Assembly: GCF_003594885.1 (NCBI RefSeq)
Contig: NZ_QZEZ01000007.1
Span: 62,001 to 126,000, forward strand
Direction: 5' to 3'
Origin: Vallicoccus soli
GTDB lineage: Bacteria; Actinomycetota; Actinomycetes; Motilibacterales; Motilibacteraceae
DNA length: 64,000 nucleotides
Every line of letters starts with the position of its first letter. Position 1 is the stretch's first letter. Made by a program: the position numbers and the translations under genes. This document shows positions 56,781 through 63,308 of this stretch, one piece after another. Under the pieces are notes generated by a model. That model was not told the origin of the DNA. It saw only the letters and a program-made list of their open reading frames with translations, and did not search any database.

Positions 56781-57650
56781 CTACGGCGCGATCACTGCGC
56801 GCGCACCCCGGTCGGCGGACGTGTCGAGCAGGCGGTGCTCGCCCGTGTACGCGTTGAGGCGCCCGTCCCGCACGAACCCGACGAGGGTCATGCCGAGCTC
56901 CTCGGCCAGGTCGACGGCCAGGCTCGACGGCGCCGAGACCGCGGACAGCACGGGCACCCCCGCGACCGCCGCCTTCTGCACGAGCTCGAAGGAGAGCCGC
57001 CCCGAGACCTGCAGGACGGTGCCGGCGAGCGGCAGGCGCCCCTGGCGCACCGCCCAGCCGACGACCTTGTCGACCGCGTTGTGCCGCCCGACGTCCTCGC
57101 GCAGGCACAGCAGCTCGCCGTCGGGGGTGAACAGGCCCGCGGCGTGCAGGCCGCCGGTGCGGTCGAAGACGCGCTGCTGCTCGCGCAGGCGGTCCGGCAG
57201 CGAGGCGAGCACGGCGGGGTCGACGGCGACCGGGTCGGCGGCGAGGTCGTGGGCGACGGCGACCCGTACCGCGTCCAGGCTCGCCTTGCCGCACACCCCG
57301 CACGAGCTCGTCGTGTAGAAGGCGCGCTCGACCGAGGGGTCCGGCGCCGGGGTGCCGGGGGCGAGGTCGGCGTCGACGACGTTGTACGTCCCCCCGCCCG
57401 GCGAGCCGGGCGCGGCGCCGCCGCAGTAGCGCAGGCCGGCCAGGTCGTCGGCCGTGCGCAGCACGCCCTCGGTGGCGAGGAAGCCCGCGACGAGGTCGAA
57501 GTCGTCGCCCGGGGTGCGCATCGTCACCGCCAGCGCGCGCCCGTCGACGCGCACCTCGAGCGGCTCCTCCACGACGAGGGTGTCCGGGCGCCGGGTGCGC
57601 ACCCCGTCGACGACCCGGACGACCGGGCGGCGGGCGGTCACGCGTCCCAT
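56781..57650 (-). CDS. fdhD: FdhD: formate dehydrogenase sulfurtransferase
   Basis: 289 residues. The CxxC motif in TTSSCGVCGKASLD takes part in sulfur transfer from IscS to the molybdenum cofactor of formate dehydrogenase. DEEPLEVRVDG-like EEPLEVRVDGRALAV, GDDFDLVAGFLATEG and EDVGRHNAVDKVVGWA are family signatures. ATG 57650 has AGGAG. It is divergent from fdhA with only 52 bp between the two start codons, so both promoters overlap. Confidence 0.93.
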   Translation of the reverse strand: MGRVTARRPVVRVVDGVRTRRPDTLVVEEPLEVRVDGRALAVTMRTPGDDFDLVAGFLATEGVLRTADDLAGLRYCGGAAPGSPGGGTYNVVDADLAPGTPAPDPSVERAFYTTSSCGVCGKASLDAVRVAVAHDLAADPVAVDPAVLASLPDRLREQQRVFDRTGGLHAAGLFTPDGELLCLREDVGRHNAVDKVVGWAVRQGRLPLAGTVLQVSGRLSFELVQKAAVAGVPVLSAVSAPSSLAVDLAEELGMTLVGFVRDGRLNAYTGEHRLLDTSADRGARAVIAP

Positions 57651-57690
57651 GCGGGCTCCTCGCGGGGTGTTTGGGCTGCCTGGTGTGTGG

Positions 57691-57696
57691 CATTGT
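57691..57696 (+). promoter_or_regulatory. Candidate leaderless -10 box (CATTGT) for fdhA
   Basis: CATTGT lies six bases before ATG 57703 with no Shine-Dalgarno sequence. A TGTTTG 17 bases upstream is a weak -35. Same spacing as other leaderless candidates here. Confidence 0.4.
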
Positions 57697-57702
57697 GCGC
57701 CC

Positions 57703-60700
57703 ATGGGCGTCCGGACGTGGATCGAGGCCTGGCCGGTCTACCGGCAGCTGACGGGGGACGACCCGCTCGGCCGGGGCGCCGCCGCGCAGTCCGGGAGGAC
57801 CAGGCGCCTCGAGCCGCGCACCGCCACCGCCGACCGCGTGGCCAGGTCCGTGTGCCCCTACTGCGCCGTCGGCTGCGGGCAGCGGGTGTACGTCAAGGAC
57901 GAGAAGGTCGTGCAGATCGAGGGCGACCCGGACAGCCCGGTCAGCCGCGGCCGGCTCTGCCCCAAGGGCTCCGCGAGCGAGCAGCTCGTCAACAACCCGC
58001 TGCGCCAGCAGCACGTGCTCTACCGGCGCCCCTACGGCACCGACTGGGAGCGCCTCGACCTCGAGACCGCGATGGACATGGTCGTGGACCGGGTCATCGA
58101 GGCGCGCCGGCGCGGGTGGGAGGACGAGGACGCCGAGGGCCGGCCGCTGCGCCGCACGCGCGGCATCGCCAGCCTCGGCGGGGCGACGCTGGACAACGAG
58201 GAGAACTACCTCATCAAGAAGCTGTTCACGGCCATGGGCGCGATCCAGGTCGAGAACCAGGCCCGCATTTGACACTCCGCCACGGTCCCCGGTCTGGGGG
58301 CCTCGTTCGGGCGCGGCGGCGCCACGGGTCCCCAGCAGGACCTGGCCAACGCGGACTGCATCGTCATCCAGGGCTCGAACATGGCCGAGTGCCACCCGGT
58401 CGGGTTCCAGTGGGTCATGGAGGCGAAGGCGCGCGGGGCCAAGGTCATCCACGTCGACCCGCGCTTCACGCGGACGAGCGCGCTCGCGGACACCTACGTC
58501 CCGGTGCGCTCGGGCACCGACATCGTGCTGATGGGCGCGCTCATCAACCACGTGATGACGAACGAGCTGCACTTCCACGACTACGTCGTCAACTACACCA
58601 ACGCGGCGTCGATCGTGTCCGAGGACTTCGAGGACACCGAGGAGCTCGACGGGCTCTTCTCCGGCTTCGACGACGACACGCGCTCGTACGACACCACCTC
58701 CTGGCAGTACCAGGGGCACGCCGCCGGCGGTGACGCGGACGAGGAGACCGACGAGGACCGCGAGTCCGAGGAGGGCCAGCAGCTCGGGGCCGGCGGTGCC
58801 GCGCTCGACCACCACCAGGTGGAGCGGGACGAGACCCTGCAGCACCCGCGCTGCGTGTGGCAGGTCGTGAAGCGCCACTACGCGCGCTACACCCCGCAGA
58901 TGGTCGAGGAGGTGTGCGGCGTCCCGCAGGACGTCTTCGCCGAGCTCGCCGACGCGTGGACCTCCAACTCGGGCCGCGAGCGCACGACCGCGCTGGTCTA
59001 CAGCGTGGGCTGGACGCAGCGCAGCACCGGCGCGCAGTACATCCGGGCTGGCGCGATCCTGCAGCTGCTGCTGGGCAACATGGGCCGCCCCGGCGGCGGC
59101 ATCCTCGCGCTGCGCGGGCACGCGAGCATCCAGGGGTCCACGGACATCCCCACGCTCTACAACCTGCTGCCCGGCTACCTGCCGATGCCGCACGCGGAGA
59201 AGCACGGGGACCTCGCGACCTACGTGCACGAGATCCGCGGCGACCGGCAGAAGGGGTTCTGGGGGAACGCCGACGCCTACACGGTGAGCCTGCTCAAGGC
59301 GTACTGGGGCGAGCACGCCACCGCCGAGAACGACTTCGCCTTCGACTTCCTGCCGCGCATCGACGGCGACCACGGCACGTACAGCCAGGTCATGGACATG
59401 ATCGAGGGCGGCAAGATCTTCGGCTACTTCATCCTGGGGCAGAACCCCGCGGTGGGGTCGGCGAACGGCCGCGCCCAGCGCCTGGGCATGGCCAACCTCG
59501 ACTGGGTCGTCGTGCGCGACCTCGTGCTCATCGAGAGCGCGACGTTCTGGAAGGACTCCCCGGAGATCGAGACCGGCGAGATCGTGCCGGAGGAGTGCCG
59601 CACCGAGGTGTTCTTCATGCCCGCCGCCACGCACGTGGAGAAGGAGGGCACCTTCACGCAGACGCAGCGCATGCTCCAGTGGCGCGAGAAGGCCGTCGAC
59701 TCCCCGGGCGACTGCACCAGCGAGCTGTGGTTCTTCTACCACCTGGGCCGGCGGATGCGGGAGAAGCTCGCGGGCTCGGACGACCCGCGGGACCGGCCCC
59801 TGCTCGACCTCACCTGGGACTACCCGGTGCACGGCGAGGAGCAGGAGCCGGACGCCGAGACGGTGCTCAAGGAGATCAACGGGTTCGACGTGGCGACGGG
59901 CGCGCCCGTCGACGGCTACCTCGACCTGCGCGCGGACGGCTCCACGGCCAGCGGCTGCTGGATCTACTCCGGCGTCTACAAGGACGGGGTGAACCAGGCC
60001 GCCCGGCGCAAGCCCGGCCGCGAGCAGGACGAGTACGCCCACGAGTGGGGCTGGGCCTGGCCGCTGGACCGCCGGGTCCTCTACAACCGGGCGTCGGCCG
60101 ACCCCGACGGCAGGCCGTGGAGCGAGCGCAAGGCGCTCGTGTGGTGGGACGAGGAGCAGGGCCGCTGGACCGGCAAGGACGTGCCGGACTTCCAGGCGAC
60201 CAAGCACCCGTCGTTCCGCGCCGGGCCCGACGCTGTCGGCCCGGACGCGCTCGACGGCGTCGACCCCTTCGTGATGCAGGCCGACGGCAAGGGCTGGCTC
60301 TACGCGCCGAAGGGCCTGGTCGACGGCCCGCTGCCGACGCACTACGAGCCGGCGGAGTCCCCGTTCCGCAGCGCCCTCTACACCCAGCAGCAGAACCCGT
60401 CGCGCCAGGTGCTGACCCACCGGGTGAACACGCTCAACCCGAGCCCGCCCGAGGGCGGCAGCGGGGTCTTCCCGTACGTGTGGATGACCGCCCGCCTCAC
60501 CGAGCACCACACCGCCGGCGGCATGAGCCGCTTCCTGCCCTACCTGTCGGAGCTGCAGCCGGCGCTGTTCGTGGAGGTGAGCCCCGAGCTCGCCGCCGAG
60601 CGCGGGCTCACGCACCTCGACTGGGCCCACGTGGTCACCTCGCGGGCCGTCGTCGAGGCGCGCGTCCTCGTCACCGACCGGCTCACCCCGCTGCGCGTGC

Positions 60701-61143
60701 AGGGCCGGACGGTGCACCAGGTGTGGCTCCCGTACCACTGGGGCTCGAGCGGCCTCACCACCGGGGACGTCGTCAACGACCTGCCGAGCCTGACGCTCGA
60801 CCCCAACGTGCACATCCAGGAGTGCAAGGCCGGCACGTGCGACGTCCTGCCGGGCCGCCGTCCCCGCGGGGAGGCCATGCTCGACCTCCTCGACGCGTAC
60901 CGGCTGCGGGCGCACGTCACCCGGACCACGGGGACCGTGGCGCGCACGGCGGAGGCGCTCGGCGAGGAGGGGCGCTCGCGCGAGGAGCAGAGCCGGCAGG
61001 GGCAGACGCACATCGCCCGCGACGCGCCCGGCGCCGACCGGGACGACGTGGTGTCCGCCGAGCACCCCGTCGCGGGCCCCGGCCGCGGCGACGGTCCCGT
61101 CACGGGCCAGGACGGGCCGTCCGACGAGCGACAGGAGCACTGA
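57703..61143 (+). CDS. fdhA: Formate dehydrogenase catalytic subunit, selenoprotein (in-frame TGA = Sec190)
   Basis: 1,146 residues when the TGA at 58270-58272 is read as selenocysteine. The [4Fe-4S] site is C52PYC55AVGC59 with C86PKG. Before the TGA comes GAIQVENQARI, after it HSATVPGLGASFGRGGATG, as in FdnG/FdhF, where Sec-His binds the Mo/W-bis-MGD. The second half has molybdopterin-binding motifs (VIQGSNMAECHP, GNMGRPGGGILALRGHASIQ, LGQNPAVGSANG, HVNTLNP-like RVNTLNP). A bacterial SECIS hairpin follows the TGA. It oxidises formate and passes electrons to FdhB. No Tat signal is visible at the N-terminus. An acidic insert occurs near residues 345-365 (DADEETDEDRESEEG). ORF callers will split this gene at 58272 and restart at 58381. 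Confidence 0.93.
58270..58302 (+). promoter_or_regulatory. Selenocysteine codon and bacterial SECIS element
   Basis: Counting U of UGA as 1, G15-G16-U17 is followed by a CCCC/GGGG stem (58287-58290 with 58296-58299) capped by the loop GGUCU at positions 22-26; GG pairs with CC at 58301-58302. U17 and the GGUCU loop sit at the same positions as in E. coli fdhF, where SelB recognises them. Sequence-visible and unlikely by chance. Confidence 0.92.
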
Positions 61144-62217
61144 GTGGTCTCCCCGACCAGCTTCTTCGGCCCCCTCGACCCGGCGCCCGACGCCGGGTGG
61201 ACCGAGCAGCCGCAGCCGCGCAAGGGCTTCTTCACCGACACGTCGGTCTGCATCGGCTGCAAGGCCTGCGAGGTGGCCTGCAAGGAGTGGAACGCGGTCC
61301 CCGAGGACGGGCTGGACCTGCTCGGGATGTCGTACGACAACACGGGGATGCTCGGCGCCGACAGCTGGCGGCACGTGGCGTTCATCGAGCAGCCGCGGCC
61401 CCTCGGGCGCGGGTCGGCCCCGTTCGCCGGCACCCCGACGGGCCCCTCGGGCACGGACGTCGCCGACGCGGTGACCGCGGCCGGCGTCGACGCGCTGGCC
61501 GACGCGAGCCGGATCGGCAGCGCGCAGCCGGGCGGGTTCCCCGTCGTCGACCGCGCCGCGGAGCGGGTGCGCGAGGCCGGGGGGCAGCAGTTCCTCGGGA
61601 TGCCGGGCACCGAGCTGCCCGGGCGCTCCGCCGAGGGCGTGGGCCGCAGCGACGTCCGCTGGCTCATGGCCAGCGACGTCTGCAAGCACTGCACGCACGC
61701 GGCCTGCCTCGACGTCTGCCCGACCGGTGCGCTGTTCCGGACGGAGTTCGGGACCGTCGTGGTGCAGGAGGACGTCTGCAACGGCTGCGGCTACTGCGTC
61801 TCGGCGTGCCCCTACGGCGTCATCGACAAGCGCGAGGGCGACGGCCGGGCGTGGAAGTGCACGCTCTGCTACGACCGCATCGGCGACGGCGGCACCCCGG
61901 CCTGCGCCAAGGCGTGCCCCACCGAGTCGATCCAGTACGGCGACGTCGACGAGCTGCGCGAGCGCGCGGCCCGGCGGGTGGAGCAGCTGCACGCCGCCGG
62001 CGTGGAGGAGGCGCGGCTCTACGGCCACGACCCGCACGACGGCGTCGGCGGCGACGGGGCGTTCTTCCTGCTGCTCGACGAGCCCGAGGTGTACGGCCTG
62101 CCGCCGGACCCGGTCGTCACCACCCGCGACCTCGGGTCCATGTGGAAGCACGCCGGCATGGCCGCCGTCGGCATGCTCGGCGTGGCCCTCGCGGTCTTCG
62201 CCGGGGGTGGCTCGTGA
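61144..62217 (+). CDS. fdhB: Formate dehydrogenase iron-sulfur subunit (FdhB)
   Basis: 357 residues. Ferredoxin-type cysteine sets are CIGCKACEVACKEWN near residue 37, CKHCTHAACLDVCPTGA near 180, CNGCGYCVSACPYG near 210, and CTLCYDRI…CAKACP, enough for four [4Fe-4S] clusters. Compared with FdnH there is an about 90-residue insert between the first and second sets. A single hydrophobic segment near the C-terminus (AAVGMLGVALAVFAGG) anchors it in the membrane. GTG 61144 follows the fdhA stop directly. Carries electrons from FdhA to the membrane subunit. Confidence 0.92.
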   Translation: MVSPTSFFGPLDPAPDAGWTEQPQPRKGFFTDTSVCIGCKACEVACKEWNAVPEDGLDLLGMSYDNTGMLGADSWRHVAFIEQPRPLGRGSAPFAGTPTGPSGTDVADAVTAAGVDALADASRIGSAQPGGFPVVDRAAERVREAGGQQFLGMPGTELPGRSAEGVGRSDVRWLMASDVCKHCTHAACLDVCPTGALFRTEFGTVVVQEDVCNGCGYCVSACPYGVIDKREGDGRAWKCTLCYDRIGDGGTPACAKACPTESIQYGDVDELRERAARRVEQLHAAGVEEARLYGHDPHDGVGGDGAFFLLLDEPEVYGLPPDPVVTTRDLGSMWKHAGMAAVGMLGVALAVFAGGGS

Positions 62218-63308
62218 GCATGGCGCCGGACGACGCCGGGCAGGGCACGCCCGGCACCCTGCGCGGCACGTCGGCGCGCGAGGCGCGGGTGCACGACCAG
62301 GGCCGGGGCGGGGCCCGGCGCGGCAGTGGCGGGGGCGGCGGCGGGCTCGTCGGCGGCGGCGGCCCGCAGGTCCCCGAGGCGGACTTCCGCTCCTACTACG
62401 GCCGGCCGATCCTCAAGGCCCCGGTGTGGGAGTGGGACATCCCCGCGTACCTCTTCACCGGCGGCCTGGCCGGCGGCTCGTCGCTGCTGGCGGCCGGGGC
62501 GTCGGTGACCGGGCGCGACGACCTGCGCCGGGCGACCCGCAGCGCCGCGCTCGTCGGGATCGGGGCGAGCACGTACTTCCTCATCAACGACCTCGGCCGG
62601 CCCGAGCGCTTCTACAACATGCTGCGCATCGTGCGGGTGACCTCGCCGATGTCGGTGGGCACCTGGATCCTCTCGGTGTACGGCCCCGCGGCCGGCGCCG
62701 CCGCTGCGGCCGAGCTCGCGCCGCTGCTGCCCGAGCGCGGCGTCCTGGGCCTGGCCCGGCGGCTCGCCGGGCCCGTCGGGTCGCTCGCCGGCTGGGCCGC
62801 GGCGGCGACGGCGCCGGCGCTCGCGACGTACACGGCGGTGCTGCTCGCCGACACCGCCGCCCCGGCGTGGCACGACGCCCACCGGCTGCTGCCGTTCGTC
62901 TTCGGCGGCAGCGCGCTCGCCAGCGGCGGGGGCGTCGGGATGCTCGCGGCCCCCCTCGCCCAGGCCGGGCCGGCGCGGCGGATGGCGGTCGCCGGCGCCG
63001 CCGTCGAGCTCGTCGCGGAGCGCCTCGTCGAGACCCGCCTCGGCCTGTCCAGCGAGGCCTTCCACGAGGACGCGCCGCGGCGCAAGCTGCGGGCCAGCCA
63101 GGCGCTCACGGTCGCCGGCGCCGTCGGGGCCGTGCTGGGGCGGCGCAGCCGCGTCGTGTCCGCCCTGTCCGGGCTCGCCCTGCTCTCGGGGTCCGCCCTG
63201 ACCCGCTTCGGGGTGTTCGACGCCGGGGTGGCCAGCACGAAGGACCCCCGGTACGTCGTCGTGCCCCAGCGCGAGCGGGTCCGGCGGGGGGAGCCGGTCC
63301 GCGCCTGA
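62214..63308 (+). CDS. NrfD-like membrane subunit of formate dehydrogenase
   Basis: 364 residues. A Gly/Arg-rich cytoplasmic start of about 55 residues precedes SYYGRPILKAPVWEWDIPAY, the usual NrfD entry sequence. About eight hydrophobic segments follow, including YLFTGGLAGGSSLLAAGA, STYFLINDLGRPERFYNML and SVGTWILSVYGPAAGAAA. NrfD-type subunits replace the haem-b FdnI protein and reduce quinone without haem. GTG 62214 overlaps the fdhB stop (GTGA); ATG 62220 is a possible start. Confidence 0.88.
   Translation: MSMAPDDAGQGTPGTLRGTSAREARVHDQGRGGARRGSGGGGGGLVGGGGPQVPEADFRSYYGRPILKAPVWEWDIPAYLFTGGLAGGSSLLAAGASVTGRDDLRRATRSAALVGIGASTYFLINDLGRPERFYNMLRIVRVTSPMSVGTWILSVYGPAAGAAAAAELAPLLPERGVLGLARRLAGPVGSLAGWAAAATAPALATYTAVLLADTAAPAWHDAHRLLPFVFGGSALASGGGVGMLAAPLAQAGPARRMAVAGAAVELVAERLVETRLGLSSEAFHEDAPRRKLRASQALTVAGAVGAVLGRRSRVVSALSGLALLSGSALTRFGVFDAGVASTKDPRYVVVPQRERVRRGEPVRA

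Follow-up and report, generated by a model that had tools for sequence, protein, structure and literature searches.

Organization of the formate dehydrogenase locus

The window analysed here is a 64-kb stretch of DNA corresponding to C7:62001-126000 of the source genome, whose nearest relatives are Kineococcus. It carries an operon encoding the catalytic subunit, the 4Fe-4S subunit and the NrfD-type anchor of a formate dehydrogenase, together with fdhD. The features at the locus are as follows, in window positions:

56781..57650, minus strand: fdhD, sulfurtransferase for the formate dehydrogenase cofactor, divergent upstream of fdhA (NF001943, 369 bits, residues 19-292)
57703..61143, plus strand: fdhA, formate dehydrogenase alpha (catalytic) subunit, 1,146 residues with a predicted Sec190 (NF041513, 1950.9 bits)
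58270..58272, plus strand: in-frame TGA of fdhA, predicted to be decoded as selenocysteine, residue 190
58284..58302, plus strand: predicted bSECIS hairpin in the mRNA, stem GGUCCCC/GGGGGCC, loop GGUCU at 58291-58295, 18 nt after the TGA
61144..62217, plus strand: fdhB, 4Fe-4S dicluster electron-transfer subunit whose C-terminus carries a hydrophobic stretch (matches Fer4_11 and scores under the FDH-beta equivalog cut-off)
62220..63308, plus strand: nrfD-type membrane anchor subunit (PF03916 NrfD, 62.3 bits; the coordinates give the frame, not the exact start)

The start of fdhD was taken at the ATG at 57650, which is preceded by GAGGAG, in preference to 57704. With mechanical starts, fdhD and fdhA would overlap at a CATG within 57648-57704, and the fdhA start at 57703 lacks a clear ribosome-binding site. 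Downstream of the operon, a gene encoding an MFS transporter (L010:2558-4054) scored above the cut-off of an L-lactate transporter model and matched oxalate/formate families below theirs.

FdhA contains a [4Fe-4S] motif, a molybdopterin domain and a dinucleotide-binding domain. Its full-length match to NF041513 (formate_DH_Act), the family model of the actinobacterial formate dehydrogenase, extends over residues 6-1067 and exceeds the curated cut-off of 1400, and its score against TIGR01553, the FDH-N alpha subunit, is also above the curated threshold (922.3 versus 814.2 bits). The members of NF041513 share the active-site motif UHS with the window protein, from which they show no difference of note. 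Conservation is poor in the C-terminal tail (about 80 residues), and Kineococcus has a longer one than the other relatives. The initial annotation had placed the protein in the FdnG/FdhF family; profile matches and structure alignment assign it to the FDH-N/Desulfovibrio FdhA type and not to the FdhF type.

FdnG of E. coli is exported by the Tat pathway and works with a cytochrome b gamma subunit. In the window operon, by contrast, the third subunit is the NrfD match, which does not qualify as a cytochrome b556 gamma subunit of the E. coli type, and inspection by eye of the FdhA N-terminus, in the window protein and its relatives, revealed no apparent Tat signal peptide. Because of this lack of an apparent signal, the sequence suggests that the active site of the window enzyme may be cytoplasmic.

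The operon resembles published actinobacterial clusters. FDH1 of Actinomycetospora chiangmaiensis DSM 45062 consists of a selenocysteine-containing FdhA of 1,078 aa, an FdhB of 362 aa and an FdhC of 366 aa; its cluster includes SelA and SelB, and the proteins were detected in the proteome (PMC7176365). In that organism selD lies under a separate locus number, and the likeness to the window operon is drawn from the description in the paper, not from an alignment (PMC7176365).

A single reading frame runs across the TGA

The frame 57703-61143 translates into 1,146 residues, interrupted only by a TGA at codon 190, between QARI and HSATVPGLGASFGRG. As first proposed, this codon falls at the Sec/Cys position of FdnG-type enzymes: it shares an alignment column with the Sec (X) in two solved structures, 1h0h and 1kqf, the latter being E. 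coli FdnG, and it matches the active-site residue of Desulfovibrio FdhA enzymes named as selenocysteine-containing. When FdnG and cysteine forms were aligned with the read-through product, the Sec/Cys column fell nowhere other than at the TGA codon.

Third-position GC reaches 99.5% on the 5' side of the TGA and 99.1% on the 3' side, and the protein is 80-82% identical to four Kineococcus homologues whether the comparison is made before or after that codon. Since both measures are equal on the two sides, the coding constraint runs across the TGA and the two halves represent a single gene.

The initial annotation had also anticipated that automatic annotation would break fdhA into two products. 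The separate open reading frame of 920 residues was indeed recovered at 58381-61143. The 189-residue upstream product holds when counted from the ATG at 57703, whereas the mechanical reading frame begins at an earlier GTG and spans 57454-58272 (272 aa). Simple ORF callers would split the gene in this way. Annotation pipelines do not always do so, since an Arthrobacter homologue with TGA at codon 189 is listed whole, as one CDS of 1,110 residues in an annotated (RefSeq-derived) plasmid record, and NCBIfam holds NF041513 as a dedicated actinobacterial model for this formate dehydrogenase.

A conserved hairpin follows the TGA

The RNA just 3' of the UGA is predicted to fold into a hairpin of 7 bp with a 5-nt apical loop, GGUCU, at nt 22-26 from the UGA (-14.4 kcal/mol). 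The published bSECIS model describes an apical loop of 3-9 nt with G at the first two loop positions, an upper stem of 4-16 bp, a distance of 16-37 nt from the UGA and a minimum free energy of -7.5 kcal/mol or lower (PMC13188914), and the window hairpin agrees with it in loop, stem, distance (18 nt) and energy. E. coli fdhF carries GGTCTG at nt 22-27 from its TGA, sharing loop sequence and spacing with the window hairpin.

Folded as a single sequence, the hairpin was no better than its shuffles (z -0.27 and +0.42). The region is GC rich, which accounts for these unsupportive scores, and a comparative test was used instead, so that the support for the hairpin is comparative. Across 30 distinct sequences, pairing was kept in 100% of cells, and it fell to 64-69% when the stem partner was slid by one column. 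Both sides had changed in 8 cells, against 2.3 in shuffles, and the covariation score was 0.259 against 0.162, with 0 of 500 shuffles as high; the changes on both sides occur in only one of the six pairs. Pair 18-30 is C-G in 53 homologues, U-A in 17, U-G in 6, G-U in 3 and G-C in 1, and is never unpaired.

Codon choice within the hairpin agrees, with proline CCC in 80/80 and leucine CTG in 80/80, and the loop glycine is GGT in 75/75, versus 9.6% of the Gly codons in the remainder of these genes; these counts come from related, non-independent sequences and no probability is attached to them. A genome scan for TGA-N18-GGTCTG (G000) returned only the fdhA site and one other, at C4:174432-174458, which lacks the stem CCC before the loop.

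The codon immediately upstream of the Sec-UGA (58267-58269 in the window) encodes isoleucine, and 77 of 78 homologues have ATT (73) or ATA (4) there; the rest of these genes uses ATC for 2287 of 2339 isoleucines (97.8%). This upstream codon might conceivably form part of the recoding signal in Actinobacteria, a proposal we put forward tentatively and regard as somewhat doubtful. The base before the UGA could weaken release-factor termination or aid SelB-dependent decoding.

The selenocysteine machinery is encoded on the same contig

The absence of selA, selB, selC and selD from the genome had been named as an outcome that would refute the selenoprotein reading. Profile and tRNA searches of the genome contigs, with curated cut-offs applied, recovered all four above their cut-offs, on the fdhA contig and 11-17 kb downstream of the TGA (about C7:120270):

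C7:131250-132164: selD
C7:133169-134428: selA
C7:135874-135964: tRNA-Sec (selC), anticodon TCA, 74.9 bits
C7:136009 onward: selB

An Rfam scan and ARAGORN gave no match within the 64-kb window, the tRNA-Sec being located outside it.

Distribution of the selenocysteine codon among relatives

FdhA is listed as the most widespread bacterial selenoprotein family in a survey that counted 1276 selenoproteins in 822 organisms (PMC5029168). Among the 80 nearest homologues of the window gene, which come from many genera, the Sec-site codon is TGA in 79 and TAG in one. The TAG form belongs to Modestobacter sp. VKM Ac-2982 (L092:10562; L108), which has a tRNA-Sec with a CTA anticodon (Rfam, 64.2 bits) that ARAGORN, going by the anticodon, labels as tRNA-Pyl. 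UAG-Sec in its family, the Geodermatophilaceae, is already on record, in a passage of PMC5330540 that cites Mukai et al. 2016. An additional in-frame TAG was noticed near the Sec codon in Micromonospora andamanensis and in a Frankiales MAG (L049 near 895, L081), possibly reflecting sequencing error or decay.

A TGA-form fdhA was present in 16 of 60 related genomes. All 16 carry selA, and in 15 a tRNA-Sec scores at least 67.8 bits; the exception, G026, has selA and no tRNA-Sec above the cut-off in an assembly of 280 contigs. Cysteine forms were found in 3 of the 60 genomes (TGC, TGC and TGT at the site), with neither selA nor a strong tRNA-Sec. These three (G007, G039 and G040; L101, L103 and L100) have GGG, GGT and GGA at the codon where the Sec forms always have GGT.

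Plasmid pYA7-1a of Arthrobacter sp. YA7-1 (L111) carries the same set of genes as the window genome, fdh-4Fe4S-nrfD-selD-selC-selA-selB. The plasmid is typed as conjugative, and its full selenocysteine module and formate dehydrogenase are flanked by an integrase and a Tn3 transposase. It could be a means by which the use of selenocysteine spreads.

Discussion

Judged from its sequence and that of its relatives, fdhA is almost certainly a selenoprotein gene for the catalytic subunit of a membrane-attached formate dehydrogenase of the respiratory type, with UGA190 read as selenocysteine. A rival reading takes the TGA as a sequencing error or the mark of a pseudogene, truncating a former cysteine enzyme; in its favour, TGA lies a single base from the TGC and TGT codons of the cysteine forms. 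This reading is refuted by the conservation of the TGA, which 79 of the 80 nearest homologues share at the equivalent codon, the remaining one having TAG with a matching tRNA; the equal constraint on either side and the conserved hairpin argue against it as well, and we give it practically no weight. Low-level readthrough of UGA does occur in bacteria, and the codon could in principle be decoded without selenium by an ordinary suppressor tRNA or by a near-cognate one, that for Trp or Cys. Against such decoding stand the dedicated tRNA-Sec, SelA, SelB and SelD encoded 11-17 kb away and the constant company of selA with TGA forms, which leave it a negligible likelihood.

A further proposal would add to the selenoprotein explanation, not replace it: translation might yield the full Sec protein alongside a 189-residue product ending at the TGA, in a ratio set by selenium supply as a regulatory switch. 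Some termination does occur at Sec-UGA codons. Formate removal by the related actinobacterium Actinomycetospora chiangmaiensis also depends on selenite (PMC7176365). No sequence feature points to a role for the short product, and we consider a switch of this kind unlikely.

For selenocysteine insertion at codon 190, SelD would supply selenophosphate, SelA would turn Ser-tRNA-Sec into Sec-tRNA-Sec. Binding the hairpin with the GGUCU loop immediately 3' of the UGA, SelB would bring the charged tRNA to the codon. Formate would then be oxidised at a Sec-ligated Mo/W centre and the electrons passed to the membrane. By analogy with the family, Sec is presumed to be incorporated and to act as the metal ligand, the active site to face the cytoplasm and the acceptor to be a quinone.

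The recognition of fdhA as one recoded gene is thus correct and well supported, and it concerns an ordinary, well-known type of selenoprotein that is not novel; many related soil bacteria have this enzyme along with its selenium machinery. It fixes the annotation of the gene and leaves general knowledge of selenoproteins unchanged. The comparative set shows clearly that cysteine forms occur in genomes lacking the selenocysteine machinery, and it adds one more example of UAG-Sec. For the source organism, the genes described here indicate a probable ability to use selenium and to oxidise formate via a molybdenum or tungsten enzyme.
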